Below, piece by piece: positions 27,670 through 60,928 of a stretch of DNA of 64,000 nucleotides. The stretch is from Entoloma clypeatum (Eukaryota; Basidiomycota; Agaricomycetes; Agaricales; Entolomataceae). A program made the position numbers and the translations under genes. Position 1 is the first letter of the stretch; each line of letters opens with the position of its first letter. The notes beneath the pieces were generated by a model. It made no database searches. It saw only the letters and a program-made list of their open reading frames with translations, and was not told where the DNA came from. The stretch lies in contig OY751493.1 of assembly GCA_963565915.1 (NCBI GenBank), forward strand, positions 4,278,001-4,342,000. Direction: 5' to 3'.

Positions 27670-27675
27670 CCCTCG
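27670..27675. other. Target-site duplication, left copy
   Basis: CCCTCG directly precedes the left terminal repeat. The same six bases directly follow the right terminal repeat at 60923-60928. Confidence 0.8.
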
Positions 27676-27709
27676 TAGGACCCCCCAAAATGCCGTCAAC
27701 ACCCTGATC
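27676..27709 (+). repeat. Left terminal inverted repeat, 34 bp
   Basis: It starts TAGGACCCCCCAAAATGCCG and ends CACCCTGATC. It is the exact reverse complement of 60889-60922. Beyond these 34 bp the two ends diverge. Confidence 0.95.
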
Positions 27710-27713
27710 TAGG

Positions 27714-27858
27714 TCCGGATAAAAATTGGACAAATTTTTGACCAATGCCTCAGCACGGTCCGGATAAAAATGGTCCAGTTTTGGCCGAAATGCCTGGGTC
27801 ACCCACCCGGATAAGATTCTGGGGGCAAAGGGTACCCTGAGATTTGTCCGGATAAAAA
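27714..27858 (+). repeat. Left subterminal repeats TCCGGATAAAA
   Basis: Exact copies lie at 27714, 27759 and 27847, with a variant CCCGGATAAGA at 27806. The hexamer TCCGGA is itself palindromic. Repeats of this kind next to terminal repeats are commonly transposase-binding sites; that role is inferred here. Confidence 0.75.
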
Positions 27859-27871
27859 ACCCTCGGGGTGG

Positions 27872-27944
27872 TTCGAACACCCGACCACATGTAATTTTAC
27901 TGTATCAGTACAGAGTTTACCACTAAACTAGTTAACCAGTTAAA
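27872..27944 (-). other. tRNA-like sequence (A-box and B-box) just inside the left end
   Basis: Read on the minus strand, it contains TAGTTTAGTGG, a perfect A-box with a closing D-stem GTTT/AAAC, and GGGTG-TTCGAAC-CACCC, a canonical T-arm with B-box. The region between is about nine bases too long for an ordinary anticodon arm, and the ends do not pair as an acceptor stem. It is therefore a tRNA relic or a tRNA-derived Pol III promoter, not a working tRNA as far as I can see. Confidence 0.35.
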
Positions 27945-28085
27945 TTAAGTGTATCGACAACTACCTTCTCAATAGGCTGTATGTATGTATTGACGAAGAA
28001 AATTTCAGTAAGACATTGACAGTTCTACCCTGATCCGGCAAGATCGTCCCCACTTTCTGGCTCAGCATTGCTTATCCTGACAGCA

Positions 28086-30331
28086 ATGGACTTTGCGCCC
28101 AATTTGGATTCTGAGAGTGATACAGATAACTTCAGCCCCGAGGAATGGATAGGGAAGGGGAAAAAAGTACCAGCACCAAAAGACTTTCCAACAGCACTCG
28201 CATTGTATTTCACGTCACTGACCGAAATCCCTCTTGCCTTCAGTGTGTTTTGCATGCCCAAGGCAATGCTCTCTGTCCAAGATTTCATCCAAGTCCCGTT
28301 GCCTGCGAGAACACATGCCATCGTGGGGGTGCATGCTTGAAAGTGTTTTAGCCACTTGCTCCCCAATGATGATGTCTATCGGCTTGCATATCGAACCTTA
28401 CCATCACGCGCTCTTGTCAAGAGTCTAAAAGAAGAGTTTCGTCAGGCCGTTTTGGACGGAATGAAATCAGTTATTGATCCCACATACCCTGATTCGCGCC
28501 TCCCATTATGGTTCCCCATGTTCTGGAGCAAGATGTGGGATGTTTACGACACTCAGGAGGATTGGCGGGCGGGTGTCTCCTGGTTGAAGGATCAGCTCCG
28601 TAATGGTCCCTTGGAATCACGACATGAATTCACACAGGCTTACTATTATACAATGGTCCTTTGCTGGAATGAAGAAACTCTCATCCCCGGTTCGAATCTG
28701 AACACCACTCGCGACTTCACAAGCTTCCTCTCAGAACACACGAAAATGAAGACGACACATATCAATATGATGTTCTCATACCTTTCAGACCGATTGGAAT
28801 TGAATGAGGCTGTTGAACGTTATGTGCGGATAGAAACCCTATGCTTCTGGAACGAACTCAACAAAGCCAAGTCGAGCAAGGATTTCAATGGGTCTCCTCA
28901 ACGGTTCATGCGTCGCCTTGAGGAACGAGTACAGGCAAACGAGTTCGACTATCTTATCTTCCCCATCTTCAACGCATCTGCGGAGCATTGGGTCACATTT
29001 AAGCTAGATTTTGAATCATATGAACTATCTTATGGTAATACACCATTTTATTTGACGGACACAATGACTTACTTGGACCAGGTGATTCTTTAAGCCATCG
29101 TATAGACCCACCGAAAGAGGTAATACGCAAGATCCAGTGGTGGGCAAAGAGCCGCTTTGGGCGCAATTTGAAAGACTGCGGTGATGCTCTGCGACATGGA
29201 AGTCAGGAAGATTACACAGACTGTGGTATTGCCGCCGCCAATGTAGCCGCATGCGACCTGTTCGAAGATGAAGAAATATGGACCCCGCGACGCAAATCAT
29301 TAGAGAGAGTGACCTGGTTCAATAAACTCGTTCAGAAACATATGACAGAAGTGAGGACATAAGTACCTTGTAGAACAACTCTCATGTTGAATTCACAGGT
29401 TAATGGTCATATTGTTCAAGGTCCCAACGCGGCCTACAATCCGAATCCAGATACTATGCCAGTGAGAAAAGATTCCAACATCAATGAAGAGTTTGATGTT
29501 CTGCCAAAATCTCTGGCCCACCTTCTGCACCCAAGCGCTGTGCACTGTCTTCCAAACAATGAGTCGCAGACAACTTCCAAGTTGAACAACACAACATTAC
29601 CTGTACCCCACAACTCGGAGTCTCCTTCTGAGGAAGACAGTCGCCTGGTAGACCCTCTCCCGTTACATCCATTCTTCGTTTCCAGTTGCCAGATGAACAT
29701 CGACGAGCGTGATGTGGAAATCAGCGATAAACGACCTTTAGCGCCCAAGCCAAACAAGGACGAACAACCAAAGAAGGTGGGAAAACTCTCGCAGGCAAGC
29801 GACAGTTCGAGTGCTCGCCGACAAATCGGTCAGTCTAAATCTGCCACTTGGGCGCGCATTCGGAATAAAAAGCATCAAGATGGGAATCTTAGCCTTACCT
29901 CCAATTCATTATCCTCCCTTCGGTTTGAAACGAAGATACGCCAGCTGGATGAGCATGCGATCATTGTCGACCCCAAGTCGGTCTGTCACATGAAATGTGG
30001 AAAAACGTTATTGATGAAGGCACCATTCGAGGTTGGATATTTCAAAAACCACGTTGATCGATGCATGGGGCCACCAAAATCATCCAAACTGAATGGAGCT
30101 GGTATGATACCACTAACAGTCAGGTTTCAGAAGCAGGCAAGCGTTGGTGCGGCCAGTGGGCGCCAATCTGAGCCTTGTCCTGGGCTTGATGAATCTGTTT
30201 ATCCTCAGGTTTCTGCTTATCTTCATCACGGAATTGGAGGAAGCCTGGATTGTCCAGATGTAAATTATCATTGGTCACAATTTTGTTGCTTACATCTACT
30301 CAAATATATTCTCTGGAAACTGAATAGCTGA
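28086..30331 (+). CDS. Ulp1/C48-like SUMO-protease gene of the giant element, with C-terminal Cys/His motif (interrupted by one TGA)
   Basis: The frame opens at ATG 28086 (MDFAPNLDSESDTDNFSPEE) and meets an in-frame TGA at 28338-28340, then continues in the same frame with LLPNDDVYRLAYRTLPS. A C48 catalytic set is present: HW in AEHWVTFKLDF, the Asp in YGDSL (joined across intron 29035-29081), and Cys in DYTDCGIAAAN. A second intron is 29351-29398. After a Ser-rich linker, CHMKCGKTL and HVDRC form a C2HC-like zinc motif near 29985-30065. The last exon ends PCPGLDESVYPQVSAYLHH and a short tail, TGA 30329-30331. Ulp1-like proteases are known passengers of several eukaryotic DNA transposons. I recall basidiomycete proteins in which a PCPGL...RTGA-GGG stretch joins such a zinc motif directly to a transposase. 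If so, this is the 5' half of a gene whose 3' half is at 56.9 kb. Confidence 0.75.
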
Positions 30332-30339
30332 TCGGCACC

Positions 30340-31020
30340 CAATGATATGTGAACATCTGAAGTCATAAGTATGCTTACAGTGTCAAAAGATGTCAAGTAC
30401 ATAGGAAAGCCATCCCTTGAGAGGTCTGGCATTGGCATCACATTGTTACTTGAATATTTTACTTGATGATTGAATGACTAGTTGACATTTGATTATATGT
30501 GATGATTTGGAGTTGTAACTATGCTTTCAATGTTGAAAAATGCAAAGTAAGTCAGAGAGCCAACCTTGGATGAGATTAGCATCAGTATTCTATTGTTACA
30601 TAAAGACCATATCTGACAATTGAATGGCAGATTGGTACTCGAAGATCTAGAGTCATAAGTATGCTTTCAAAGTTGGAAAATATAAAGCAAGTAAGAAACT
30701 CGACTGGGATGGGATTAGCATCAGTACCATGCTGCTAAATGAAGATCATATCTGACAACCAAGTGACAGGTTGGTGTTCAATGATATGTTCAAAGCTGGA
30801 GCCCTAAGTATACTTTCAAATTTTAAAAGAAGCCAGCCCTGGGCAGAACCAGCATCACTACTATGCCAGCACACAATGACCATACCTGACAATTAAACAA
30901 CAGTATGTTTTTAATGTTGAAAGACATAAAGCAAGTAAAAAAGCCAGTCCTGGACAAGATTGGCACTGGCGTGATATGGAAACATGAAGGCCATATCTGA
31001 TATTTGAATGACTAGTTCAT
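30340..31020 (+). repeat. Degenerate tandem repeats, about 140-150 bp period
   Basis: A motif of the form GTCATAAGTATGCTTTCAA recurs at about 30363, 30513, 30651, 30800 and 30905. Each copy is followed by a run like AAAGCAAGTAAG, then GGATTAGCATCAGTA, then CATATCTGACAATTGAATG. Copies are clearly related but diverged and AT-rich. Confidence 0.65.
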
Positions 31021-31495
31021 CATGAATTTATCACCTGGAAACCCACCTTTCATCATCTCCCAAATATCTCGCTCAATTCTCACTCTATAGATACCAAACT
31101 TGAGATACTGCCTAGTACCATCCCTAACATATTACAGATGTCTTTTGGGTGTCAATGTTATAGCAAGGATGAAAAACAGGGACTTGTCACACAAGTTGCA
31201 GACTGCTCTTTCAACAGCCTGTCATCAGTCACCTGATGAACAAGATGATCTTTCTGGTGCAAAGTATGTGTAATGCAACCACGACCTTCCAAACTGCAGA
31301 GCAAGAATATTAAGGCAATCACTACTTCCAGTCTATACCTTATTTGTCTGAATTGTTGGGTATACTTAATAAAGTTTGATGGTCTTTTTATATAATACTG
31401 ATCACAGAACTAGCATGACTTCCCAAATTTGGCATGAAAATACTGATAACCTATGATCTCAGCTGCTTCCTCATATTCCGCCTGTTATTGAGCTG
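31021..31495. other. AT-rich stretch without a recognisable gene
   Basis: No reading frame or repeat could be supported between the degenerate tandem repeats and the duplicated segment starting at 31496. Confidence 0.4.
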
Positions 31496-32137
31496 GGATT
31501 GGTGTTTTAATCATATTTTGGGGCTACTTGTACTTCTGATCAAGCTACAGAAGCGAAGATGTAGCCTGCAGAGCTTGGATAATGCCCAGCACAGCTATTG
31601 GGGTGCGACAACGGCGATGTCCGATGGGTTGGGTCTCCTTTCGGGTTGGCCAAAGGTTCTGCCCTAACACCGAATTGATTCCGCACATCTGATGTCAACA
31701 CAAGAGAATGCCTTGGTGTTCAAGAACATAAGTTGCATTCAACAATTGGAGCTCTGACGGCTGATCGACGATCTTGTAGAGACCCGGCAGAATTAGAGGC
31801 CGTACCAGGATATTGCCTGTGGGTGAAAAGATTTGATTTGGTCAGACAAATCGAAGATAAGGCAACAATGGGACGCACCAAGAATTTCTACCATTCCTGT
31901 CGGAAAGGGACGGGCTTACAAGCCTACTGACATTTGGGGACGATGGAAAATGCATATCATGAAACCTGTACAAATGATCATGCATGTTGGTTTGTTTGCC
32001 AATCGATAAAAGAGAAAAAAGATACATACACCATGGCCAACAAAGTGCAAGAACAGATCCTATACACAGTGCATACCGTCATAATGCCGGCGAGGGAGTG
32101 TGTTTTGCAGGGCTTCATTAAAGTGCGAGGCGGTGCG
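31496..32137 (+). repeat. Left copy of a 640-bp segment duplicated on both sides of the Gypsy element
   Basis: Nearly identical to 38145 onward and related, inverted, to 51720-52630. It carries a remnant of the small gene better preserved at 52343-52798 (frame ending KGTGLQAY at about 31930), with a TGA where that copy has CGA (PN-stop-FRTSD). It ends exactly where the truncated Gypsy LTR begins. Confidence 0.8.
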
Positions 32138-32468
32138 CGAAGAGAAAGTTCTAAGGATTCCCCTGCAAGCTAGCGAGATAAATAGTAAAATGAGATATGA
32201 AATAAAAGATAAAACGAGACATAGGAATGATGAGTAATGGTCGGGAGTAGGGATGGGGGATGAATGGAAACGAGATGAATGATAGTACCTGCGATCCGAC
32301 GTGCGGAGGAGCGGAGGGGCGCGGAGTCGTCGGATGTGGAGAGGTGCAGAGAGGTGAATAAGATATCAGAGGCAACAGATACGATCAGAGGGCGTCGGAG
32401 GGCGTCGGAGGGCGTCGGAGATGGTGGAAATGAACGGAAAGGGAAAGTGCAAAGTGGTTGCCCTTACA
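32138..32468 (-). repeat. Gypsy 3' LTR, truncated
   Basis: It matches 37814-38144 with about one mismatch in 331 bp but lacks the outer 113 bp. A triple GGGCGTCGGA repeat lies near 32390-32420. Confidence 0.9.
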
Positions 32469-32479
32469 TCACCCCCCCT

Positions 32480-34030
32480 TCAAGGCACGGCGTCTCGACG
32501 TGTCAGGCGAAACGAGTCGAATATCGCAGCGGAGATCCGACGCGGAGCTCCCGGATGACGTCGGTAGAAGTCGCGGACTAGGCGCGGAGCGTGGACATTG
32601 TCTTCTGCTTCCCAGGAATTCTCTTCGTAGCCATATCCCTTCCATTTGACCAAGAATTGAAGCTTGCCTCGATGCAGTCGGCTGTCCAAGAGGTTTTCAA
32701 CATCATACTCCAATTCTTCTCCCACTACCGTCGGAGGCGGAGGAGAGCGGACTTGGCGTCGGAAAGGGTCGTCGGGAACTAGTGAAAGTTTGACGACGTG
32801 GAATACTGGGTGAATGCGGGACATGGAAGGGGGAAGGCGAAGTTCGTAGGCATGTGTTCCGACAGGTCGGACCACTGGGAAAGGGCCTACGTACCGATGT
32901 GCAAGTTTTTTTGTGGGTCGGGTGGTTTTGAGGTCCGATGAGTCTAAAAAGACCTTGTCCCCCGGGCGGAATGTCGGAGTGGTGCTCCGATGCTGGTTGT
33001 AGTATCGCGCCATGTCGTCTTTTGCCTTTGTTAGTGCTGCGCGAGCCTCTTCCAGAGCGGACTTCATCTGCTCGCTGAAATCCGCTACCGCCTCGATTTC
33101 CGTCTGCTTCTCGCGAGGTTCGAATCCCATGCGCGGATGGCGGCCGGTGTCAATGTAGAACGGAGTTTGACGTGTCGATGCGTGAACATGGTTGTTGTAT
33201 GCAAATTCAGCCATCGGAAGCCATTCGTCCCAATCGTCTTGACGTTCATTGACGAATAGGCGAAGATATTGTTCCAATCCTTGATTGACCCGCTCCGTCT
33301 GTCCGTCCGACTGCGGATGGTAGGCTGTCGAGGCAGCAATCTTAATGCCAAGTAGCCTATATAGTTCGCGCGTGAACTTGGCGACAAACTGTGGTCCGCG
33401 GTCGGAGACAATGGCCTCCGGTAGTCCGTGGAGTTTCCAGACGTTTTGAATATAGGAGCGTGCAGTCCCGAGTGCGGAGATGTCGGAGTGCGTCGGGATG
33501 AAGTGTCCCCGCTTCCCTACTGAGTCCACTACCACCATGATAGCGTCGTAGCCGTGGGCTTCTGGTAGTTCAGTAATGAAGTCAACACTGGTTACTTGCC
33601 ACCGCTCCGTGGGGACCGGTAGTGGATTGAGCTCTCCGGAGGGCGGAGTGCATCGGACCTTGGTGCGGAGGCATGAGTCGCATGTCTTGCAATATTGACC
33701 TATTAAACGAGACATGTGTGGCCACCAGTAATTGCGCGACACCAGTTCCAAGGTTTTCCACCGTCCCGGATGTCCGGCCACCGGAGTGTCGTGGTGTTGT
33801 GTGAGGATCCGATGACGCAGTTGGGGATTATTAGGAACATAGATACGATCCCTGAAGTAGAGCAAACCTTCCGCTTGCCTCCACTCCGCACTTCGGACGG
33901 ACCCCGCTCCGACGGTCGGAAGGGATCTGACGACCTCCGCCACACTATCCTCCAGTAGCCCCTCTCGGATTCCCTGTCGGACCTGGCAGAGGACGTCGCG
34001 TTCTTCCCCTTGAACAGTTACCCCACGCAT
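32480..34030 (-). CDS. Gypsy pol, C-terminal part: integrase and chromodomain
   Basis: This is a 516-residue frame. In order it shows the H-H-C-C zinc region (HHDTPVAGHPGRWKTLELV and CKTCDSC) and the DDE integrase core with VDFITELPEAHGYDAIMVVV, VSDRGPQFVAKF and HPQSDGQTERVNQ. The C-terminal chromodomain carries EYDVENLLDSRLHRG and FLVKWKGYGYEENSWE. Integrase inserts the cDNA, and the chromodomain is expected to bind marked histones and steer insertion. It is in the same frame as the reverse-transcriptase part; only one TGA at 34034-34036 separates them, followed by GCA and ATG. It was probably one polyprotein before that change. Confidence 0.93.
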   Translation of the reverse strand: MRGVTVQGEERDVLCQVRQGIREGLLEDSVAEVVRSLPTVGAGSVRSAEWRQAEGLLYFRDRIYVPNNPQLRHRILTQHHDTPVAGHPGRWKTLELVSRNYWWPHMSRLIGQYCKTCDSCLRTKVRCTPPSGELNPLPVPTERWQVTSVDFITELPEAHGYDAIMVVVDSVGKRGHFIPTHSDISALGTARSYIQNVWKLHGLPEAIVSDRGPQFVAKFTRELYRLLGIKIAASTAYHPQSDGQTERVNQGLEQYLRLFVNERQDDWDEWLPMAEFAYNNHVHASTRQTPFYIDTGRHPRMGFEPREKQTEIEAVADFSEQMKSALEEARAALTKAKDDMARYYNQHRSTTPTFRPGDKVFLDSSDLKTTRPTKKLAHRYVGPFPVVRPVGTHAYELRLPPSMSRIHPVFHVVKLSLVPDDPFRRQVRSPPPPTVVGEELEYDVENLLDSRLHRGKLQFLVKWKGYGYEENSWEAEDNVHAPRLVRDFYRRHPGAPRRISAAIFDSFRLTRRDAVP

Positions 34031-34033
34031 TGC

Positions 34034-36550
34034 TCACACTGCAAACAATTCTGGTCGAAGAAGGATGATGTTTTCGTTGTCCCGCGATCCGTCTCCGTGG
34101 TCCGCTCGTCGGGACAAAGCGTCGGACTTGCCCATTGACTTTCCAGGTCGATGGTGCATTTTAAAATCGAAACGAGCGAGGTATAAGGACCATCTAGCTT
34201 GTCGTCGATTTAGTTTTTGAGCTGTCATGAAGTACTCAAGATTTTTGTGGTCCGTCCAAATCTCCACTGTCTTCTCCGCTCCTTCAAGGAAGTGCCTCCA
34301 CTCCTCTAATGCGCGGACCACTGCCAACATCTCCTTGTCATAGATCTCGTAGTTGCGTTCCACCGGACTGAGGCTTTTGGAATAGAATGCGACAGGGTGC
34401 CACTTACCGTCCTCTGTTGGTTGGGACAGTACTGCTCCGGTTGCAAAGTCCGAGCTATCCGCTTCTACCCGCCACTCCTTTCGATGATCAGCTAAGACCA
34501 GGATTGGAGCGGATGTAATCCTCCGCTTCAACTCCGCAAATGCGGACACTTCTCCTTCCTTCCAAGACCAGAGGTGCCCCTTCTTCGTGAGCTCGAAAAG
34601 AGGGCGCGCGATGTCCGAAAACCCTTCAATAAAACGGCGATAGAAGTTAGTGAACCCCAGAAAGGACTGTACTTCTCGGACGTTTGTCGGAGCAGGCCAC
34701 TCCGCGACCCCCGCTACTTTCACCGGATCCATCTCTACGCGTCCTTGTTCAATAATAAGGCCTAAGTATTCAATGCGCGTTTGCTCAAACTCGCATTTCT
34801 CTGGTTTTAGATAGAGTTTGTGTTCGCGAAGTCGTTCCAGTACAATCCGTGTGACCCTCTGATGTTCCGCAAGGGTCTCCGTGAAGATGAGTATATCGTC
34901 AAGGTAAACACAAACTACACCTTCAGTGATAAGGTCCTGAAAGATCTCGTTCATCATAGTCTGGAATGTGGATGGACTATTAGTGAGGCCGAAGAACATC
35001 ACCAATGGTTCATAGAGTCCGCGATTGGTCCGAAAAGCGGCCTTCCACTCGTCTCCGGGCTTTATCCGTACATTGTTGTAACCCCAGCGGATGTCGAGTT
35101 TGGTGAAGTATTGAGCGCGTTGAAGTTTATTGATCAGTTCGGATATGAGCGGAAGCAGATACTTGTTTTTGATAGTTTTGGAATTGAGTGACCGGTAGTC
35201 TTGTACAAGACGAAGGGAGCCATCCTTTTTCTTGATATAGAACACCGGAGATGCCATCGGAGACTTGGAAGGGCGGATCCGACCAGTTGCAAGGTTTTCC
35301 TCCAAAAACGCGTCGAGTTCTTTCTGTTCGTTCGGGGCGAGCGGATATACCTTACAACCCGCCGGAGAGGCGTCCGGAACAAGTTCAATGGCGTGGTCCC
35401 ACGTCCGCTCTTCCGGTAAGGTGTCGAAAGAGGTCTTTGAGAATACGTCTTCGAAATCAAACAAGTGGTCTGGTACGGAATCGCGGAAAGATTTGGGTTT
35501 CTGGTTACTGAGGAAGGCCTCCGATAGACGTTGCGAGATATTGGATGAAGCGCGGATGAACTCCGCCTCCACAGGTACTGTTCCGACAAAAAGGCGGTCT
35601 CCCTCCTCAAACTCATCCTCTTCCTCATTGTCTTCCGCTAACTCCTCCGTTTCTTCTCCTTCTGTGACATCCTCCACCCATGGGCCGCGTGGAGCCTCCT
35701 CCTCTAGACCGGACGTCGGAGTGGAACCCATCCGACAGGCTCGGATGCGGACTTGTTCGAACTTCCGCTCCTTCCGCTCTTGGGCTGCCTCCTGTTGGCA
35801 TGTCCGACATCGTGCAGGACACCGGCTCATCTTCACTTCCCCTGAAGTCCAATCTACCTCGGGGTTGTGTTCTTTGAGCCAAGTGAAGCCTAACACGATT
35901 TCTTGTTTTCCCAAACTTGTGACTGCAAGCTGGGTCCGTTCCGAGTGATCCCGATAGCGGAGCACTACGTCCAACACCTCCGTTATTGCTCTGGCCTCAT
36001 TCGGAGTTCCGTCGATGTTGTATACCGGAATTGCGCGTTGTAGTTTTCGAGTAGAGAGTCGGTGTTTCTCGACCAGAGTACGTTCAATAAACGATCCTGT
36101 TGCCCCACTGTCGAGTAAGGCCTTTTGTGATAGTATGTCTTTAGTGTCGGTAGTTTCGAGAACTATGTCTAGTTTGAGGGAATTGTCGGAGCGAGCGGCT
36201 GCGGCGAGAACATATTGTTTTGGAAGCCGCCGCTCCCACTTAGAGAAGCGGATGCGGATAGGGTTTGCGGAGTTGGGTGCGACTATAGGATCGTTTGCAT
36301 GCTTAGAGATGGAGGGTATAGGATCATATTGTTCCATAAATAAGGCAGCATAACGATTTTTAGTAGACAACGAGGGCGCACTGTTCACTCGTTGTGAGGA
36401 GGAAAATCCTCCTGTCCTCCCTCCGACTCTGCAGACTCCGTGGGCGGAACGGAGTTGCCTTCCGCCGCGTCCTTGACCATGAGTTGTTCCATGATAAACT
36501 CGTCTTGTTCCTCCATCGTCATGAATCGGACGTCGAAGCGAAGGGGGCAT
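34034..36550 (-). CDS. Gypsy pol, N-terminal part: protease, reverse transcriptase, RNase H
   Basis: Visible in order are the aspartic protease motif ALLDSGATGSFI, the reverse transcriptase with LDIRWGYNNVRI and catalytic VYLDDILIF, and RNase H with VEADSSDFATGAVLSQP and WTDHKNLEYFMTAQ. The frame lies -1 relative to gag and overlaps its 3' end by about 165 bp, consistent with a programmed -1 shift at an unidentified slippery site. The N-terminal Met shown by the open frame is not necessarily used. The frame ends at an in-frame TGA directly before the integrase part. Confidence 0.93.
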   Translation of the reverse strand: MPPSLRRPIHDDGGTRRVYHGTTHGQGRGGRQLRSAHGVCRVGGRTGGFSSSQRVNSAPSLSTKNRYAALFMEQYDPIPSISKHANDPIVAPNSANPIRIRFSKWERRLPKQYVLAAAARSDNSLKLDIVLETTDTKDILSQKALLDSGATGSFIERTLVEKHRLSTRKLQRAIPVYNIDGTPNEARAITEVLDVVLRYRDHSERTQLAVTSLGKQEIVLGFTWLKEHNPEVDWTSGEVKMSRCPARCRTCQQEAAQERKERKFEQVRIRACRMGSTPTSGLEEEAPRGPWVEDVTEGEETEELAEDNEEEDEFEEGDRLFVGTVPVEAEFIRASSNISQRLSEAFLSNQKPKSFRDSVPDHLFDFEDVFSKTSFDTLPEERTWDHAIELVPDASPAGCKVYPLAPNEQKELDAFLEENLATGRIRPSKSPMASPVFYIKKKDGSLRLVQDYRSLNSKTIKNKYLLPLISELINKLQRAQYFTKLDIRWGYNNVRIKPGDEWKAAFRTNRGLYEPLVMFFGLTNSPSTFQTMMNEIFQDLITEGVVCVYLDDILIFTETLAEHQRVTRIVLERLREHKLYLKPEKCEFEQTRIEYLGLIIEQGRVEMDPVKVAGVAEWPAPTNVREVQSFLGFTNFYRRFIEGFSDIARPLFELTKKGHLWSWKEGEVSAFAELKRRITSAPILVLADHRKEWRVEADSSDFATGAVLSQPTEDGKWHPVAFYSKSLSPVERNYEIYDKEMLAVVRALEEWRHFLEGAEKTVEIWTDHKNLEYFMTAQKLNRRQARWSLYLARFDFKMHHRPGKSMGKSDALSRRADHGDGSRDNENIILLRPELFAV

Positions 36551-37539: not shown

Positions 37540-37700
37540 TACTATGCGCGGAGCAGAATCACCGGTTACGGAGAGGTAATTAGAAGAACTGGAAGGGGTG
37601 TGAGATGTATCGGAGTCGGACGCGGACGAAGCTACTCCGAAGCGCGGAATCGTGACAACGATGCAATCGGACCCGGTCCAATTAGATGAGAACTTTCTAC

Positions 37701-38144
37701 TGTAAGGGCGACCTTACGATCCAAGACTCAAACCCAGATACTTGCAAGGGAGATCCGAAGATTAGATTGAGCAGTCTGATAAGTAATACAACACACACCT
37801 TGCAAGGGAGATCCGAAGAGAAAGTTCTAAGGATTCCCCTGCAAGCTAGCGAGATAAATAGTAAAATGAGATATGAAATAAAAGATAAAACGAGACATAG
37901 GAATGATGAGTAATGGTCGGGAGTAGGGATGGGGGATGAATGGAAACGAGATGAATGATAGTACCTGCGATCCGACGTGCGGAGGAGCGGAGGGGCGCGG
38001 AGTCGTCGGATGTGGAGAGGTGCAGAGAGGTGAATAAGATATCAGAGGCAACAGATACGATCGGAGGGCGTCGGAGGGCGTCGGAGGGCGTCGGAGATGG
38101 TGGAAATGAACGGAAAGGGAAAGTGCAAAGTGGTTGCCCTTACA
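37701..38144 (-). repeat. Gypsy 5' LTR, full length (444 bp)
   Basis: On the plus strand it is bounded by TGTAAGGGCGACC and GGTTGCCCTTACA. It contains two internal TTGCAAGGGAGATCCGAAGA-type direct repeats near 37742 and 37802. Confidence 0.88.
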
Positions 38145-44696: not shown

Positions 44697-44710
44697 GTCT
44701 CGCCAGATTT

Positions 44711-49563: not shown

Positions 49564-50134
49564 CCGCCTACGGCGGTCTACATCGCTAGTACTGATAACC
49601 GACTACCAGGCGGCCATTCCCTGTCTCGTCGCGATCTCGCTTCGGCCGTACACAGCTCCTGAGTGGGACCCTTCAGACGAGGAGGATGAGGATGAGGAAT
49701 ACGATGGTGGGGAGTTCATGTATTAGCCACTCGACTCAGACATCGCAGCTGTCGAAATATCGCGAAGTCGAACGTGACAAAGCGTGACTCATCAGATTGG
49801 GAACGGACAATCATCATTCGTGCAACACACCATCATGGAGCACAAATATCATGACAACAGGGCAGGAGGTCCGTGTTATTGTCATTGTCAATGATTTTCG
49901 CTGAATCACATCTGATTTTTAGACCATGGTGATGGAGACAGCAAGTCTCCCTTCTGCCGATCTGACCGATCTCGATGATCACTGACATCTTTAGCCTCTC
50001 GCTGCCTGTTTCCAGATGACTGCGGCGATGATCAGGGTGCCACTGGAATATGGCCAGGGCAAGGTCACGGCTATGATGTAGGTGGTGTTGGATGAGCCAA
50101 TTGCGTCCGAATCTCAGTGTCAAAATACAGGCCC
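49564..50134. other. No firm gene
   Basis: A short acidic frame ending EWDPSDEEDEDEEYDGGEFM (about 49665-49723) may be a relic of another Spt5-like or acidic protein. Otherwise nothing is supported. Confidence 0.35.
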
Positions 50135-51449: not shown

Positions 51450-51529
51450 GTGGGACCATATCTCAAGGCTATTTCCATCCCTGATACTTATTCAGAATAG
51501 CGATTCTGGAAATACTTCGAGCAGAGTGA

Positions 51530-52630
51530 ATGTCGCTTGTTAGTGACGACGACTGATGTTGATTTGGTTTGTTGTGGGAGGCGGTGCCAGCACCCTTCTT
51601 ATAGTACGTACTAAGTATTGTCAATGAAACGCCTATGTTCGTGTCAGTGGAGTTTGAAATATGAACGCAACTTTGAACGACCATCAACGACCACGGATAT
51701 CTCTCATCCGCACCGCGAACGCACCGCCTCGCACTTTAATGAAGCCCTGCAAAACACACTCCCTCGCCGGCATTATGACGGTATGCACTGTGTATACACT
51801 CCTGACACTGGTAAGTTTTTCTGGAGGAAAAATCTATTGTGAAAGAGGAATCCTCTTTCCTTTGGGTGTATTTTTGAGAAAAATACAAAGTATTTCATAT
51901 AGAAAATTTTAGAAAACATATAATGTGTTTCCAAAGTATTTCTTCTGGCAAAACTTTTCATTTTCCCAAGAGTTTTTCTGAAAGATAAACTTATTCCATT
52001 GTTCAAACAATGGATCTAGTTTTTCCTCAAGAAAAACTGTAGGATAAACAAAAAGTTTTTTGGCCAAAAATATTTGGAAAAAACATTACATGTTTCTTGA
52101 AAATTTCCATATAAAATACTTTGTATCTTTCTTAAAGATATACTCAAAGGAAAGAGGATTCCTCTTTCATAATGAATTTTTCCTCCAGAAAAACTTTTCA
52201 GTGTCAGGAGTGATAGGATCTGTTCTTGCACTTTGTTGGCCATGGTGTATGTATCTTTTTTCTCTTTTATCGATTGGCAAACGAACCAACATGCTCGTTT
52301 GTACAGGTTTCATGATATGCATTTTCCCATTGTCCCCAAATGTCAGTAGGCTTGGAAGCCCGTTCCTTTCCCACAGGAATCGTAGAAATTCTTGGTGCGT
52401 CCCATCGTTGCCTTATCTTCGATTTGTCTGACCAAATCAAATCTTTTCACCCACAGGCAATATCCTGGTACGGCCTCTAATTCTGCCGGGTCTCTACAAG
52501 ATCGTCGATTAGCCGTCAGAGCTCCAATTGTCGAATGCAACTTATGTTCTTGAACGCCAAGGCATTCCCTTGTGTTGGCGTCGGATGTGCGGAATCGATT
52601 CGGTGTCGGGGCGGAACCTTCGGCGAAAGT
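51530..52630 (-). repeat. Inverted relative of the segment duplicated around the Gypsy element
   Basis: Its 51530-51720 part is the reverse complement of 38770-38950. After the MITE, 52213-52630 matches the reverse complement of 31600-32070 and 38250-38720. It is the best-preserved copy of the small gene carried by the segment. Confidence 0.8.
51797..52212. mobile_element. CACTA-like foldback MITE, 416 bp
   Basis: The ends are CACTCCTGACACTG and its inverse. The two halves are inverted copies for roughly 140 bp (for example GAAAGAGGAATCCTCTTTCC in both arms). The element splits a sequence that is intact in the 31.9/38.7 kb copies and is flanked by a 3-bp duplication ATA (51794-51796, 52213-52215). 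CACT-type ends with a 3-bp duplication fit the CACTA/CMC group, the same group as the Plavaka gene in this window. Confidence 0.85.
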
Positions 52631-52798
52631 GAAAGGAGACCCAACCCATAGAACGTCACCATCGTTGCACCCGCATGGCGTTTCCACCTCCTCAATGACA
52701 ATATACCAAACAAGCGCCTCCTCCCTCTCTCCTCCCCCACAATCCATACCCCCCATCTCCTCCCTGACCACCGCCGCCATCGAGCCCCCACCGCACAT
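52343..52798 (-). CDS. Small gene present in three copies, unknown function
   Basis: This is a 151-residue frame from ATG 52798 (MCGGGSMAAVV) to TGA/TCA 52343. The C-terminal half is also encoded, with a premature TGA, by the copies at 31.7-31.9 and 38.3-38.6 kb. It includes GALTANRRSCRDPAELEAVP, then GYCLWVKRFDLVRQIEDKAT. The three copies differ by only a few residues there. The N-terminal half is unique to this copy. Conservation between copies suggests a real protein belonging to a mobile segment; function unknown. Confidence 0.5.
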   Translation of the reverse strand: MCGGGSMAAVVREEMGGMDCGGGEREEALVWYIVIEEVETPCGCNDGDVLWVGSPFTFAEGSAPTPNRFRTSDANTRECLGVQEHKLHSTIGALTANRRSCRDPAELEAVPGYCLWVKRFDLVRQIEDKATMGRTKNFYDSCGKGTGFQAY

Positions 52799-53224
52799 CT
52801 TATTCTCCCCATATACCTTCTACATCCCGGGAACGAGCACTGGATCGGCTCACCACGTCGTGGATTTTTTTCTGTACGGACGCTAGCGTGTCAGAAGTGG
52901 ATGATCTGAGCGAGGGGCGAGGGGAGGTGCTGTGCCGGCTCCGCTCAGACCAGCTGTCTACGACCAAATCCGCCTCGTTGGATTGAGATCAGCTAAGTAG
53001 ACATCAATGGGCTTGATCGTCGAGAGGCGCGCATTTGGACCAAGACTTGTTTTGGTAAGTTTTAGTCCGCCGAGAACGCACTTTTAAGCTAATATTTCTT
53101 CCCAATAGGCTTGTCATGTGCTTTGCAATAACAAGTCTTCTCAGCCAACTACACGAGATTGCCACAATAAATATCTAAATGTCACGCCAAATGCTGTACT
53201 TTGCCTAACTCAATTTCATTGCCC
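52799..53224. other. No gene seen
   Basis: Upstream of the small gene and downstream of the Cys-rich gene. Nothing supportable. Confidence 0.35.
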
Positions 53225-54091
53225 TCACCTATAATCGTCCTCTTGTGGAGCCACCATGCAGTAGTGCGCGTCAAACCGCCTGGCCGTCGTAACCCAAAGA
53301 CACTTTCTGCACTGCATAAACATATTCCAGAAGAATGCTCCAGGAACCCCTGGGTTTTCCTCGAGGTCCATTTGCTTCATGACCAGCTCGTACGGCGCTG
53401 GTCCATCTTTCGGCTCTGTAGTTTGCTGGCCTGAGTTAAGCTGTGAGTAAGCAATCTTGTTGGTTTGGCATTGTCGACTGACCGTAAGTTGAAAGTCGTC
53501 CACCTCCCACCATATCAATCCGGCGCATCTGGAAGGTACCCTCAAGGTTGGGATTGATGAATAGTTTATCAATACAAACTTCAGGCATTTGTATCAGCTC
53601 GTCTTCCGAGACTGTCATCAAGCCTAGAATTACTCACGTTCGTATCCGCACCGGCGCAAGCGACAACCCACAAAAAGCTTCCTTTCCCTATCGGAGTACA
53701 GCAAGCATTCAACGTAGCGCCGAGGCCTATCCTCCAGCAAACCGCACAGGCAGCAAGGCAAGCGGAAATGACGAGTCACTCGGTATGCCGCCCATTCTTC
53801 GTACCCCAGATTGCGCCTCCCCTCCCCCTGGGGCCTACGTTAGCAACGTAAGTAACCCTCCGTGTTTCAATCCGCACAAACTCACCAGAACCAGACACGG
53901 ATTTCTTGATATTCAGGATCCCAATGGGAGACTGCTGGGTACCAGTCTTCATGAGCTGCCCTCTCCTTCAGCAACTCCAGGCATTTCGTTACAGAAACAA
54001 ATGCGGCCTTTGTGGGAAGGATGCTAGACATTGAGCAGTGGAAGAGCTTGGGAAACAGGCTGGTTTGGTCGACGTTATCTGCGAGTGCCAT
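53225..54091 (-). CDS. Cys-rich (zinc-finger-like) protein, unknown
   Basis: The start MALADNVDQTSLFPKLFHCS (ATG 54091) runs to HWDPEYQEIRVWFW before GTGAGT. The next exon (about 53828-53642) reads YEEWAAYRVTRHFRLPCCLC, then GLLEDRPRRYVECLLYSDR and a further cluster GCRLRRCGYER. Several Cys suggest a metal-binding domain, perhaps GRF-like, with CxxC and two later Cys. Later exons carry GTFQMRRIDMVGGGRLSTYG, then PYELVMKQMDLEENPGVPGA, FFWNMFMQCRKCLW and the end DAHYCMVAPQEDDYR. I do not recognise the family with certainty. It lies divergent from the DUF6698-like gene. Confidence 0.6.
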
Positions 54092-54139
54092 CCTTTTAGC
54101 CCCAGCCCACCCATCTCCAACGCGACGTAAGTGATACTG

Positions 54140-54225
54140 AATAAAGGGTCCGAGTCCCTTAACCTTGTTTAAGGGTTTCAGTCCTTAATGTTTGGTCCCT
54201 TTAACTTCGTTAAAGGTCCATGACT
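54140..54225. other. Two adjacent short hairpins between divergent genes
   Basis: CCCTTAA-CCTTG-TTTAAGGG and CCTTTAAC-TTC-GTTAAAGG lie about 40 bp apart in the shared upstream region of the 54091 (minus) and 54329 (plus) genes. They may be binding sites or transcript hairpins. Confidence 0.4.
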
Positions 54226-54328
54226 GATTTTGTACGTTCCCAGGTAGCCCTGCGCATCGCAGTGTTACTTAAGGCTTTTTTAATTCTACTGTACCTTCAT
54301 ACGTCTCCCCCTCGCTTGGGCCTTCGAT

Positions 54329-55741
54329 ATGAGTGCAAGCGGAACCGCGAAACGTCCCTTGGAAGACGATGCCCTTACGTTGGGCCCAAGAAAAAGGCCG
54401 TGCGGTTCTCAACTTGATTTTTTCACCTTAAAACTCATTTTCTCTCTTAGATCGAAGACTGACCCGTTCATTCACCATGGTCGACATTTTGGCCGTACGA
54501 TTCACGCCTTCTGTCACATTCAAACACTTTTGGAGAAGGGGCTTATACGCGAGGATGCTCTATACGAGAACCCCAGCATGGTCCTATCTCCTGAGTAAGT
54601 TTGTTTCGCCGCGTCTGCTTTCACGATTTCTCATCCCGTCTCTCAACTCAGAGAAGCACGAGAACATAAGGTGTATCGACAGCTTCTCGACATGATACCT
54701 CGTCTTGAAGCGCGGCTCATGGCCGAAGAAAGGTCGGACGAGGACCTCGCACACATCGCCGAGCTAGTGAGTGCTTTCCGTGCACTGTAGAAAGACGCAG
54801 CATCTCATGGGATCTATAGCTCCAGAAAGGGGCTTCTGGTGCCAGAGCTGATGACACAAAGGGATTAAAAGGTCCCATTTTGGACTGGATAACTCCGCAA
54901 GGAGAGGCCTTGAGGCCCGCTTTGGCGCGCAACAACAAATCCGACTGGGGGTTCCAGCACCCATTGACTGGGTCTCTGCTGTGCCCTACAGACTATCAGT
55001 GGAAGGATGCCGAGTGAGTTCATCTGATCTGAACTGCTGCTCTACGGTTATGACACCCTTCAACGACAGTATACAACGACAATTAAAGTCGTTGGAGCTG
55101 ACTGTCTCTGGCGACCAATGGCCCATTTTTATCTATGAAGGGTATGAGTTCAATCCCGAAAGCCCATGGAAAGGACTCCTTCGCAGTGATCTGATGGTTA
55201 TGGTGTGTTTATTCTCATCCTAAAGTCCTTATTGTTTTCTTCATCTCCTGCTGCCAGGCTTTTAAGCACATCTTTACCTCTCCCAGTTCTGTTGACAAAG
55301 AACCCAAAGCAACGCGATCTGGAAATGCTCGCATACATGGAATGACTGAAGTAACACCTGCATCTCTTGCATACGTTGCTACCCAAGTTTGTCTTTCCGG
55401 CGCATACTTCCTTTCATGAGGCTCATATTCTTTTTTGAGGTTCGCTTTGCCTTGAGCAGCTCTTCGGTCTTCTCCAAGTCTGATTTGGCCACTGATTCAG
55501 AACGCTTTTACCTGTCTATTCTTGAGGTCTTGGAAGATGAGGCAGAGCAAGAAGATTGGAAAGCATTGAACCAGTGGTGGAACAAGTAAATCAGTTCTTT
55601 AACCTTGAAACTAGTCTAATAATTATTCATTCCAGTCTAGTCTTCCCCTCCTCATCTCGTCAACCTCAAAACCTTCAGAACAGTGCTCGTGCCCATATAG
55701 CAGCAATGAGAGTGAAGCGTGCTTCTGCGAACAATGGGTAG
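54329..55741 (+). CDS. DUF6698-like protein
   Basis: Starts MSASGTAKRPLEDDALTLGP. Further exons give DPFIHHGRHFGRTIHAFCHI, then LLEKGLIREDALYENPSMVL, VYRQLLDMIPRLEARLM, VSGDQWPIFIYEGYEFNP, AFKHIFTSPSSVDKEPKATR and GNARIHGMTEVTPASLAYVA. Next come VRFALSSSSVFSKSDLATDS and ERFYLSILEVLED, then the basic end MRVKRASANNG, TAG 55739-55741. Six introns are needed and all have good GT-AG signals. The sequence strongly recalls a large Agaricomycete family of unknown function that I believe is catalogued as DUF6698. The motif SPSSVDKEPKATRSGNARIH is very typical of it. No catalytic role is known to me. The gene looks intact and is part of the presumed cargo. Confidence 0.75.
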
Positions 55742-55979
55742 ACCTTGCTATCTCGTTATCATCTCGTTATCATTAGATATTACCACATACTACTACTGCA
55801 TCAGTTCCATGAAATAAATTGCCATTTGTCATCCCATCTATTTGTTATCATGGCTGAGTCACTGTTGCATGGGTTTACAGCCTGCTGGAACATTAGATTG
55901 ACCATTGTAAGACCAATACTTGTGTTAACTTATCAATTTGAACTAGGACTACATGAGCAGCAAGCATTACTGCTGCCTG

Positions 55980-56680
55980 GATGTGTTTGTAAGTCTGGGG
56001 TGGCTGGTACATGTCATCAATCATGACAAAAATTACATTACCAGACAGGATTTATAGACTATCCAAATCCTGCACACATTTGTAAGTGCTGAGGTGCTTG
56101 ATGTTTGATACCAACACCAACATTGATTATCCCTAATGGTATGTATGGTGGAATTCTCAAATGATGGATGTGTTTGTAAGTCTTGGGGTGGCTGGTGCAT
56201 GTCATCAATCACGACAAAGGTTACATTACCAGACAGGATTTATAGACTACCCAAATCCTGTGCACATTTGTAAGTGCTGAGGTGCTTCATGTTTGGTATC
56301 AACACCAACATTGATTATACCTGCCAGTATGCATGGCGGAATTCTCAAATGATGGATGTGTTTGTAAGTCTTTGGATGGTTGACATGTGCCACCAATCCT
56401 GACAAAAGTTATATTACCAGACAGGATTTATAGACTACCCAAGTCCTGTGCACATTTGTAAGTGCTGAGGTGCTTGATGTTTGATACCAACACCAACATT
56501 GATTATCCCTAATGGTATGTATGGTGCGATTCTCAAATGATGGATGTGTTTGTAAGTCTTGGGGTGACTGGTGCATGTCATCAATCACGACAAAGGTTAC
56601 ATTACCAGACAGGATTTATAGACTACCCAAATCCTGTGCACAATTGTAAGTGCTGGAGTGCTTGATGCTTGATGCCAAGG
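55980..56680 (+). repeat. Tandem repeat, about 188 bp x 3.7
   Basis: Units start at about 55980, 56167, 56355 and 56543 with GATGTGTTTGTAAGTC. Each contains CAGACAGGATTTATAGACTA and CACATTTGTAAGTGCTGAGG. Units differ at a few per cent of positions. Every full unit holds two TTTGTAAGT sequences that look like splice donors. Confidence 0.92.
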
Positions 56681-56810
56681 TTACATGTAGTTATTTTCTC
56701 CTCTACAGATGCCACATGCTGAGACAACAGAATGCTCATAGCAGTCTTTTCAATGTGTTGAAATTAGCTTTGATCCATTCACTCACAAACCCTGAGGACT
56801 CTAATCTAAC

Positions 56811-56819
56811 TATATAAAG
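56811..56819 (+). promoter_or_regulatory. TATA box upstream of the transposase half
   Basis: TATATAAAG lies 87 bp before the first ATG (56898) of the transposase frame. It would allow the transposase to be transcribed independently of the Ulp1-like gene 26 kb away. Confidence 0.5.
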
Positions 56820-56882
56820 GGGTTCATCATAATTACAGGTATTTTCCTTATTTTATTTCTTTCATGACATTCTAATTCTAGG

Positions 56883-59800
56883 TCTGCTGCTCACCAAATG
56901 TGTGATGTTAACCGAACTGGCGCCTGTGGAGGCGGAGCTTCCTCAGTTACCGTCATTGCTGATGAGATGTATAAAAAGCAGTACATATACCTTTCCAAGG
57001 CGCGTAAGAAGATGGTGAAGACAGCTCAGCAACAGGAATGGCAATGGACAAATAGCCATGAAACCGGTAAAGTTTTCGCAACGAAGTGTCTAAAGAAGGC
57101 ATCTCCTCCACCTCCTCGACTTCAAGCTGACAATGTTCTCATGGCGCCGTGTCAATCATGTCAGCAAATTCTAACTGTGAAAAAATTCAAGAATGCTTGT
57201 CATGTTCCGCGACCTCCAGACAATCATTATAGGTTTCTCAATTCTGTTTATCGTGGCCAGCAAATTGCTTCTATCTTTGGGCGACATATCGGACTGCGAC
57301 CTCTCTTTGAGGACAAGGTTAGCACCGATTCCAGCTGGCTGATGATCCAGACACTTAAATTGTATTAGGGTGCTCTTGAATCACCTCTAGTCCAATATCT
57401 CTGCAATGTTATTTTGGATGATCCAGATTCCCAGAAAATGAAACTTGGAGGCGACAATGTTTTCATGTCCATGATACAAGTTTTGGTACTAAAGCGTGAC
57501 AAGAAAGCACATGGAGTAGGGTTACAGAACCTGAAATATGGTCCTAACCTTATCGAATTCGCGCACATCATCTTCTCCCACAGTCCAGCGATGTACAAGA
57601 GATTGAAGGAATCACTTCCCTTACCTGAGCCTCAAACACTACAGTAAGTTCACGTAGCATATTTGACTTGATATGTCTCTAACCTGTTACAGATTACATC
57701 ATTCTCACCAGCCTCGTTTTCCTGTTGGTATTCAGGCCCACACATGTCACCTTGTGGAGGACACTCTAAAAAAGTTGGAGTATCACGGACCTGTTGCATT
57801 AAGTTGCGATGATACGAAACTTTTGGCATCGTTTCAGGTTTATTATGACAAGGAACGCCAGGCGTACTTTCTCATAGGACATGTTGGTGAAGAGTATCAA
57901 CTCATTGATCCTGATGCATTCAAGAAGGTGATTGAGGACAACCGTTTCAAAAAGGCTACGAAGGTGAGTCATTCTTATTGCTGTTGTCAATGATGCTCAT
58001 CATAGTCTAGCTACGATTGTTCGGCTTGCAGATCCCAGTGCCCAAAGTACCTACCATCTTATTAGCTGCCATTCCTATTCCAGAGGACTTCGATGCTGAC
58101 CAACTTTTTGAATACTCCTGGCAAGTTATTACGGGACTCCTTGGGCTCGGTATACAGGTGGTTTCATACGCCACAGATGGGGGCACAGTTGAACGCTCGG
58201 TTCAACGAAGAATTGAAGCCCATGCAACTCGCACGGAGAAAATTTCCTTTAGGCATCCCGCCCATGATCTCGGTCTTCCTGATATCATCATTCCTATTTG
58301 ATTCTATGGAGAAGATGGAAAGCACCCCCTGGCTGTTTTCCAAGATGCTAAGCACTGTTCCAAGACATTTCGCAACAACTCTTTCTCCGGAGCTCGAGTT
58401 TTGACTCTCCCCAATCACATTGTCCACTACGCCCAGATACGTGACATGAGCTTTGGAGAAGATGCTCCACTCTACCGACGCGATGTGGAGAAGTCTGATC
58501 GTCAGGATGACAATGCCGCGACTCGTTTGTTTTCAGCGCGTTCTGTTGAATTTTCGACAGAAAAATACCCCGAACGAAAAGGATTACTCATGTTTCTTTT
58601 TATCTGTGGTGAACTCGTCGATGCCTATGAAAACCAGTCAATCACCATAACTCTACGCGTCCAGATGGTTTACCGGGCATATTTTTTCTTTGAACTATGG
58701 GAGAAGTTTCTCAACACCGGAGGATATCCAAGGTCAAAGCATTATGTCTCGCCGCAGTGTCGAGACATTGTGCAAATTCTCATTCAGGGCTTTCTCCAAC
58801 TGGTCATCATTCATCGCGACTACTGCAATTGCCGACCTTTCCTGCCCTGGTTATTTTCAACAGAAGTCCTGGAGCATGTCTTTGGGATGTGCCGTCAGAT
58901 GGTCAAGGACTTTACCATGCTCGACTTTATTTACATGGTCCCTAAGTTGTCCATCCGCCTACGTGAAGCATTTTTCTCATCACGCACTACGAACGGCAAG
59001 GCTCGGGCAAGTGGTTATGCGCACACTCACACAGACACCCGCGGCATTGATTTAGCCGCTTTATCATCCTATCCCACAAATGACAAGATCAAAGAGGCTG
59101 CCAACAGAGCGTATCAAGAGGCGCATTCTCTCTTTGCATATCTTGGCACCACAGCTATGCAAATCTGTCGGCCAGGGACTCTCGGGATACCTAGTATCAA
59201 TACTTGGTTTGCTGATAGTGAGGATGATGATATTCCTGATAAAGATGAACTCGATACAGAGCCTGACTTGGATGACATGGACGATTACCAACAATTATTG
59301 GATGACCTCGAAGACGTACTTCCAGATACCTTGCAAGGGGAGACGTTGTTGAACAACTTTCGCTATGCATCCATTGCACTATCTGTCGACGAGCAGATGA
59401 AGATGTAGGCCCTGATGAATTGTAGAATATCCATAGAACTAACTATACCTTCTATAGATGTGCTTTACCTGAATTAGATGAAGATGCTTTGACAGAAGCT
59501 CATTCGGACGATGCCCTGCATATTGCAACAACACTCTCTGGAATAGCAGACCTTCCCGCAGTTCATGTTGACGAACCCAGCAACCCATTTGATATCGAGG
59601 ATCCTTCAGCTCTTGACCTGGGGGAACTTGTCAATCTCCGATATGCACATCAAACGAAACAGGCTGCGACGGGAGTCAAGAATCACTCACGCCGCCGTAC
59701 GACTGACATTGATTCATCAAGCCCCAGTAGCTCTAGGGACACGGACACAGGGAGGAATAGTGCGGAGCCAACAGAACGCCAACAGCTCCTCCGTCGATTT

Positions 59801-60617
59801 ACAGAAATAATCAAAAACCAAGGTGACCGAGGTATTGGGACGGGTTTAGAACGATCGGCCCGCTGGCAAAAGGTGATGACAGAGGAGACCGAAACAGACC
59901 CTGTACTGTCGGGGAACGCTAAAAATGCTGCGAATACAGCAAAAGCCACAGCAACGAAGGTATGTACTTTCGGGTGTCTAGTACCAGTCTGGGCTGAGAC
60001 AGGCTTGTAACACTAGTTGCTAAAGCATCGCATGGAGATGTTCAAGAAGTACAAATTGCCCGACATATTTGGCGATGCACGTATCAGCGCGACATGTCCA
60101 TTGCGAGTTGGGGATTGCAATGTTGGGGGATATGGATTCGTTCTTCCCTCACACGATAACCTTGATCTTGTTGTCTGTAAAGGTGAAGTATATTTCGACC
60201 ACGGATGCCTTCATGGTATTGATGTTCAAGGACGTAGTTCTCACCATATATTCCAAAACTGGGGGCGCGAACGGGAAGCACAGTTGGGTGCCTGATGTCG
60301 CTATCATCACTGCGGCATCCAACATCGTGGTCCAGGTTTTTGAACATCATTTCGGGAGCATGTTCTATGCCAAGCCTCCCTCATATGCACTCCCGCAACT
60401 TAAACGCTTTGACATTATACCTCCAACATTCTTCCTCTGCGCGCTAAAACACTCCCCTGCTGAAACAGCCGATGGTCTTAAAATATCGACCGAAGATGCC
60501 AATCTACTCAAGGACTTGAAAACTCGAATTTCCGATATCAGGATGGCCGTTAAAGAGCTGGGTAAAAAGAAGAAGAAGTCTGCTATCGAGAATGACGAGG
60601 AGGACTTCAATGTTTGA
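56883..60617 (+). CDS. RNase H-fold DDE transposase of the giant element (interrupted by one TGA)
   Basis: The first readable exon follows TTCTAG at 56882 and contains NRTGACGGGASSVTVIADEM and a CQSC zinc pair. Further exons start at 57369, 57693, 58011, 59458 and about 60016, with a last exon from about 60229. Catalytic-type acidic motifs are ALSCDDTKLLASFQVYYD, then VSYATDGGTVERSVQ, then FSTEVLEHVFGMCRQMVKDF near 58855. The D-D-E arrangement with LEH.FG is reminiscent of P-element/THAP9-like transposases, but I would not fix the superfamily. An acidic linker follows (59215-59330), then TIYSKTGGANGKHSWV and a Lys-rich end, TGA 60615. One in-frame TGA at 58299-58301 (IIIPI-stop-FYGED) breaks an otherwise open exon. 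Unless the codon is read through, this copy makes no full protein. Confidence 0.8.
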
Positions 60618-60779
60618 CACAGACTATATGGTAGACATACTCATTCCTGAGCCGTAAACTATGTTCCAACAGTCCCAAATTGACGTTGATTATTGTAAAT
60701 TACCGTCCGTATACGCTTCTGGTCTCCTCTGGCTCCAAAGGCGAAATTTTCCGGGTCCCCGAAAATGCCTGATCCATAA

Positions 60780-60865
60780 TCCGGATAAAATTCGCCCCGC
60801 AGGGAAGTCTCAGGTAAATCCGGATAAAAAACTCCCAAAATTGCCCAAAAAACGTCCGGACAAAA
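60780..60865 (+). repeat. Right subterminal repeats TCCGGATAAAA
   Basis: Exact copies lie at 60780 and 60819 and a variant TCCGGACAAAA at 60855. They are on the same strand as the left set, so relative to each end they point in opposite directions. Confidence 0.75.
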
Positions 60866-60888
60866 TCGCGGATTTTTGGCCCTTCAAG

Positions 60889-60922
60889 GATCAGGGTGTT
60901 GACGGCATTTTGGGGGGTCCTA
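60889..60922 (-). repeat. Right terminal inverted repeat, 34 bp
   Basis: It ends TTTTGGGGGGTCCTA and is the exact inverse of 27676-27709. Confidence 0.95.
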
Positions 60923-60928
60923 CCCTCG
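60923..60928. other. Target-site duplication, right copy
   Basis: CCCTCG, identical to 27670-27675, directly follows the right terminal repeat. Confidence 0.8.

Follow-up and report, generated by a model that had tools for sequence, protein, structure and literature searches.

P elements are described as leaving 8-bp duplications on insertion and as having binding sites in their interior besides their 31-bp ends (PMC7776569). For PlavakaB, of the CACTA/CMCT group, duplications of 2-3 bp and CATCA..TGATG ends have been reported (Kojima 2025, PMC12730594), and Ulp1 domains are known to occur in plant CACTA and MULE elements (PMC2528002). The locus considered here belongs to Entoloma clypeatum and lies in a stretch of 64,000 nucleotides (C12:4278001-4342000, hereafter the window), in which an earlier note had seen one cargo-laden DDE transposon of 33 kb. 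We give a probability of about 95% to a different reading, that of two nested transposons, in which an outer element of P-superfamily type, 6,559 bp long, is split by a transposon of PlavakaB type, here called N, the source of nearly all of the supposed cargo. The evidence that bears directly on this reading consists of the boundaries, the duplications, the independent copies of N, the reading frame across the insertion, the fused relatives of the outer protein and the P-type core fold of a relative (coordinates in Table 1).

The gene interrupted by N

Joining position 30223 to position 56910 preserves the reading frame, and the uninterrupted outer element consists of 2,547 bp (27677-30223) and 4,012 bp (56910-60921). 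Its gene model on the plus strand comprises nine exons between 28341 and 60617 (1,731 codons), one of them split by N, and eight short introns, all GT...AG and 43-68 bp long in the first model, after which one acceptor was shifted to give the exon 58011-59404. The only in-frame stop of the joined gene is TGA at 58299-58301, and an additional first exon upstream of 28341 is likely. The Ulp1-like gene at the left and the DDE transposase at the right of the earlier note are both present, not as separate genes but as the two halves of this one.

Three full-length fused relatives were found among 8,000 candidates scored with a query of 1,372 residues, in which X took the place of the stop codon: P0121 from Lyophyllum shimeji (1,802 residues; 48% identity, 100% coverage), P0122 from Bondarzewia mesenterica (1,640 residues; 30% identity, 100% coverage) and P0123 from Schizophyllum commune (1,793 residues; 31% identity, 62% coverage). 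The named relatives of the window proteins all belong to mushroom-forming fungi. The insertion point of N corresponds to an invariant Tyr-Leu in the alignment, and all three relatives continue on both sides of it; the uninterrupted alignment at this point is evidence, at the level of the protein, for the empty site of N. The last two exons of the model (60017-60187 and 60231-60617) were placed by splice sites, frame and likeness to P0121 by eye, with no tool alignment.

The catalytic core of a relative, a P-type RNase H core, has the P-element fold; the alignment to 6p5a covers chain residues 204-565, an outcome that bears on the core as a whole and not on its GTP-binding insertion by itself. 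The model of the transposase was built from 36 homologues, hand-picked by length and spread among the best 120 of 336. P-type helix-turn-helix regions (PF12017, cut-off 23) score 24.8 bits in P0121 and 28.5 bits in P0122. At the other end of the protein, the Peptidase C48 profile (cut-off 20.7) gives 21.1 bits for the spliced window sequence and 19.6 bits for the unspliced one, and a profile made from the four proteins matches the ULP1 structure with an E of 3.6e-7. Histidine, glutamine and cysteine of the site, which together with an aspartate we take to be the catalytic positions of Ulp1, are invariant in all four proteins. Ulp1 acts on SUMO, and the domain of the outer protein would act on SUMO-like modifiers.

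Elsewhere in the genome, the transposase core has seven matches at 28-37% identity, all seven with stop codons, and the Ulp1 part has one (35%), also with stops; C8:754176-755520 matches only the last part of the element (window 59577-60921), at 82% DNA identity. All genome searches covered 60 Mb in 20 contigs of one strain, and the match counts given in this text are lower bounds. In the window copy of the outer element the gene is broken twice, by the insertion of N and by a single stop codon.

Ends and family of the outer element

The terminal repeats match perfectly across 33 bp. The earlier note had recognised this perfect pair at a length of 34 bp; the shorter length is preferred because the family copies set the edge at AGGACC, the start of all four complete ones; the extra matching bases beyond it belong to the flanks and agree by chance. 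The direct duplication outside the repeats, given before as the six letters CCCTCG, likewise exists but is 8 bp long, a length that recurs in the family copies; CCCTCG by itself is common in the window (38 occurrences, 31.7 expected). The flanks of the element are unique in the genome.

With up to three mismatches, the 33-bp repeat has 10 matches in the genome and its reversed control has none. Four complete outer copies were recovered (the window, C2:5441025-5448643, C13:529625-542884 and C2:3255881-3270370), one diverged end pair coming from a search with a 450-bp short copy and the rest from the repeat search. Exact 8-bp duplications flank three of the four, and that of the C13 copy matches at 7 of 8 positions. 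Inserted repeats also lie inside the three copies outside the window. Short relatives with outer ends exist in addition, such as the 450-bp copy just mentioned (C8:5020921-5021370), which is without the right repeat. In the window, TCCGGATAAAA occurs seven times with at most one mismatch, against 1.2 expected by chance, and six of the seven lie within 185 bp of the outer ends, all on the plus strand.

The outer element resembles the P superfamily (Drosophila P element, zebrafish THAP9) in its 8-bp duplication and in having terminal repeats, of about 31 bp there, accompanied by short subterminal repeats (PMC7776569), as well as in the P-type helix-turn-helix of two of the three full-length relatives, the P-element core fold and the short, internally deleted copies. 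It differs in being fungal and 6.6 kb long, the P element having 2.9 kb, in the orientation of its 11-bp subterminal repeats, which are direct and not inverted, and in its N-terminal Ulp1 domain and Cys-rich segment, no THAP domain being reported. Membership in the P superfamily is thus argued from the core and the 8-bp duplication, and the element is not classed as a canonical THAP-bearing P element because it has Ulp1 instead of THAP.

By eye, the interior of the diverged copy C2:3255881-3270370 resembles a non-LTR (long terminal repeat) retrotransposon interrupted by a gypsy-type element. The C13 copy contains a second CATCA..TGATG element (C13:529778-542533, CATCAGCAA...TTGCTGATG) with the 2-bp duplication AA, and the uninterrupted version of its site is seen in the C8 copy and in the window. 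Of the four complete outer copies, two contain Plavaka-type insertions, the second being classed by its ends and 2-bp duplication; this frequency might reflect chance within a repeat-rich region or a target preference of Plavaka.

Element N and its contents

Pieces of the interior match many contigs at 78-99% identity, and several of these matches end near 30224 or 56907 (two pieces were used for the DNA search, 27830-31500 and 38440-58300, with 23 of 183 candidates scored for the latter). The aligned junctions, four left and five right, read CATCAC or CATCAT and GTGATG or ATGATG; with at most three mismatches and the window included, the genome holds five left and eight right ends, and a CATCA or TGATG tip is found in 13 of 13. 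Both ends are ordered on one contig in three copies. Since its termini, 2-bp duplications and Plavaka transposase agree with the description in PMC12730594, N fits PlavakaB, an assignment made by those three features. Its size, 18.8 kb in the most compact complete copy, and its Spt5/KOW-like and DUF6698 genes may set it apart from published PlavakaB elements.

The interior of about 25 kb that had been regarded as cargo is another transposon, inserted in the outer element's own gene, and neither the cargo nor the size class of 33 kb is supported. The earlier note had held that its claim would fall if an allele or relative had the cargo genes at this locus without the terminal repeats, and a result of this kind comes from other loci of the same genome: Plavaka transposase, Spt5/KOW-like and DUF6698 sequences stand at loci without outer repeats, the complete C5 copy of N carries the cargo genes, and both outer-repeat searches list nothing on C5. 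The part of N with DUF6698 (window 53602-56295) is present in that copy at 96%.

The Spt5/KOW-like protein of N has 75 genome matches, and PF00467 and PF23290 (KOW5_SPT5) domains occur in the two relatives that match it best; the second of its open reading frames (ORFs), 45437-46486, has no Pfam match. Ten loci, the window included, match at 80% or more, all within or beside other N sequence, the rest matching at 24-64%. The ratio of nonsynonymous to synonymous substitution rates (dN/dS) between the window gene and seven other loci of the 75 is 0.31-0.49, and six of the seven partners contain stop codons; the gene has been under past constraint and has many dead copies. Some KOW-family loci were seen by eye, with no control, near Plavaka matches (C6:848485 and C6:838296; C8:1827426 and C8:1834482), and the gene may be carried by other mobile elements too.

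N also holds repeats and insertions of its own. The LTR copies of its gypsy-type element are identical at 330 of 333 compared positions, and on either side of the element lies a directly repeated 642-bp stretch of N (31496-32137 and 38145-38786, 631 of 642 identical). This duplication stands in place of the usual short target duplication and may stem from recombination or from the assembly. Further inverted arms lie outside the palindrome at 48508-49238. At the site of the fold-back insertion the alignment of N with the C5 copy overlaps by 7 bp, and another fold-back copy (C10:159250-159667) has split N sequence within the C10 copy, close to that copy's left end. A tandem repeat with 188-bp spacing occupies 55998-56673, toward the right end of N; the alignment suggests that the C5 copy has two fewer units.

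Table 1. Features of the two nested elements and of their copies; positions without a contig prefix are those of the window.
Feature	Position	Strand	Basis or remark
Outer target site duplication, left, 8 bp, ACCCTCGT	27669-27676	.	sequence
Outer terminal inverted repeat, left, 33 bp	27677-27709	+	edge fixed by family copies
TCCGGATAAAA direct repeats x3 (27714, 27759, 27847), candidate transposase binding sites	27714-27857	+	function inferred
Ulp1-like (Peptidase C48) domain, exons 28341-29034 and 29082-29350	28341-29350	+	Pfam, alignment, profile
Split exon, first half: linker and Cys/His-rich segment	29399-30223	+	frame, alignment
Target duplication of N, left, TT, 2 bp	30222-30223	.	sequence
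N, nested PlavakaB-type transposon, 26,684 bp, ends CATCAC...GTGATG	30224-56907	+	junctions, copies, terminal class PMC12730594
Ty3/gypsy-type LTR retrotransposon in N	32138-38144	-	by eye from ORFs
Plavaka transposase exon of N	41730-42524	-	PF18759 46.3 bits, cut-off 26.3
Spt5/KOW-like gene of N (ORFs 46795-48243, 45437-46486)	45437-48243	-	KOW profile above cut-off for 46795-48243
Near-perfect palindrome in N, 356-bp arms, 98% complementary, 19-bp gap	48508-49238	.	sequence
Fold-back insertion in N, 413 bp, 207-bp arms	51797-52209	.	missing from C5 copy
DUF6698 (PF20414) ORF of N	54855-55223	+	41.2 bits, cut-off 23.7
Target duplication of N, right, TT, 2 bp	56908-56909	.	sequence
Split exon, second half, in frame with 30223	56910-57317	+	frame, alignment
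Exon with P-type helix-turn-helix region	57369-57643	+	PF12017 21.3 bits, cut-off 23
Exon with first acidic motif DDTKL	57693-57963	+	alignment
Exon with remaining RNase H-like core (QDxKH, EHxFG motifs), contains the TGA	58011-59404	+	alignment, model
C-terminal exons 59458-59959, 60017-60187, 60231-60617	59458-60617	+	first aligned by P0034
TCCGGATAAAA-type direct repeats x3 (60780, 60819, 60855, the last with one mismatch)	60780-60865	+	function inferred
Outer terminal inverted repeat, right, 33 bp	60889-60921	-	edge fixed by family copies
Outer target site duplication, right, 8 bp, ACCCTCGT	60922-60929	.	sequence
Outer copy, 8-bp duplication ATCAGAAC	C2:5441025-5448643		exact
Outer copy, diverged, 8-bp duplication AGAATAGG	C2:3255881-3270370		exact
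Complete N copy, 26,684 bp	window 30224-56907		2-bp duplication TT
Complete N copy, 18,768 bp, most compact	C5:4563474-4582241		2-bp duplication TC
Complete N copy, 40,519 bp	C6:1382321-1422839		2-bp duplication GC

Alternative readings and what the locus means

A single 33-kb DDE cargo transposon, with the interior genes as its own travelling cargo, would account for the intact outer ends and the duplication that surround the entire 33 kb; it is almost certainly wrong, since the interior has its own ends, duplication and transposase, occurs as complete copies elsewhere without outer ends and interrupts the outer gene, and no second outer-plus-inner composite appeared in the genome searches. 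The distinction from Starships, the giant elements of ascomycetes, that the earlier note had drawn holds good: with its DDE enzyme, its Ulp1 domain and its intact ends, the outer element is not a tyrosine-recombinase Starship. The likeness, a big fungal insertion with intact ends, is superficial, whereas the enzyme is of the DDE type, the end-proximal gene is Ulp1/DDE and the size stems from nesting; no captain-type tyrosine recombinase was found among the 19 window ORFs and two spliced pieces covered by the Pfam scan, the gypsy ORFs and others lying outside it. It has also to be considered that N entered the outer element elsewhere and that the composite then moved once, as a 33-kb unit, by means of the transposase of another copy. 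Intact outer ends and an 8-bp duplication are compatible with such a move, which is nevertheless highly improbable, as the genome has neither a second composite nor a second good transposase core, and insertion of N in place is simpler. A further alternative concerns the gene, whose Ulp1 and transposase parts could be two separate adjoining genes, an in-frame TAA (29360-29362) being read if the intron 29351-29398 stays unspliced. This is quite unlikely: the intron is bounded by GT...AG and its removal leaves the frame intact, and both parts occur in the same order in three predicted proteins of other species, although these are predictions and not sequenced transcripts.

Several points weigh against the nested reading or the nature of the outer protein. 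Both empty sites are reconstructed solely from duplications, relatives and reading frame. The query for relatives was 7 codons short at one exon edge, and P0121, P0122 and P0123 are gene predictions; P0122 and P0123 are without parts of the catalytic core in the alignment and are for this reason incomplete or degenerate. The helix-turn-helix piece of the window stays under the PF12017 cut-off (E 3.6e-4), and PF12017 is unlisted for P0123 in the Pfam scan, which also reported no THAP domain in the three relatives or the window pieces. As to Ulp1, P0123 scores slightly below the Peptidase C48 cut-off (20.6 bits) and P0121 and P0122 are unlisted at E up to 1, the assignment in these two resting on the alignment and the joint profile; moreover, the aspartate of the triad is kept in just two of the four proteins.

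With two nested transposons, the history of the locus would run as follows. The outer element codes for one large protein composed of an Ulp1-type protease, a linker and a Cys-rich segment, a P-type helix-turn-helix and a P-type RNase H core, which, by analogy with P elements, would bind the TCCGGATAAAA repeats as well as the 33-bp ends, excise the element and reinsert it with an 8-bp stagger. N would then have inserted with a 2-bp duplication, so that its transposase and its Spt5/KOW-like and DUF6698 genes came to lie within the outer coding sequence, and would in turn have received the gypsy-type and fold-back elements.

The giant cargo transposon thus dissolves, and an Ulp1-bearing variant of P type remains. 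In plant CACTA-ULP and MULE elements Ulp1 is likewise carried by cut-and-paste transposons, but their transposases are of the CACTA/Tnp2 and Mutator types (PMC2528002), whereas the present one is P-type. Neither an Ulp1-P transposase nor an Spt5 gene in Plavaka was found in the titles and abstract openings of the open-access papers listed (for Plavaka, 25 of 676), which is weak evidence of novelty. A joint proposal, which we put forward tentatively and regard as somewhat more apt to fail than to hold, is that Ulp1 has replaced THAP in a mushroom lineage of the P superfamily, coupling mobility to SUMO-like de-conjugation, and that an 18.8-kb PlavakaB carries a constrained Spt5/KOW gene that aids transcription from silent chromatin. 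If so, the targets of Ulp1 would be the transposase itself or host silencing factors, and the Spt5/KOW-derived gene could serve N as an elongation factor.

With this analysis, one supposed giant DDE cargo element turns out to be a false case; size and intact ends are insufficient evidence of such an element, because short elements can accumulate other transposons. The Pfam scan of 19 window ORFs showed no TET/JBP gene. With its Spt5-like passenger, N would bring a transcription factor into the set of genes that fungal DNA transposons carry, beside the published TET/JBP genes. A fusion of P-type transposase and Ulp1 in fungi adds another transposase group to the cut-and-paste associations of Ulp1, and what Ulp1 does in transposition can be tested on the fused genes predicted in Lyophyllum shimeji, Bondarzewia mesenterica and Schizophyllum commune.

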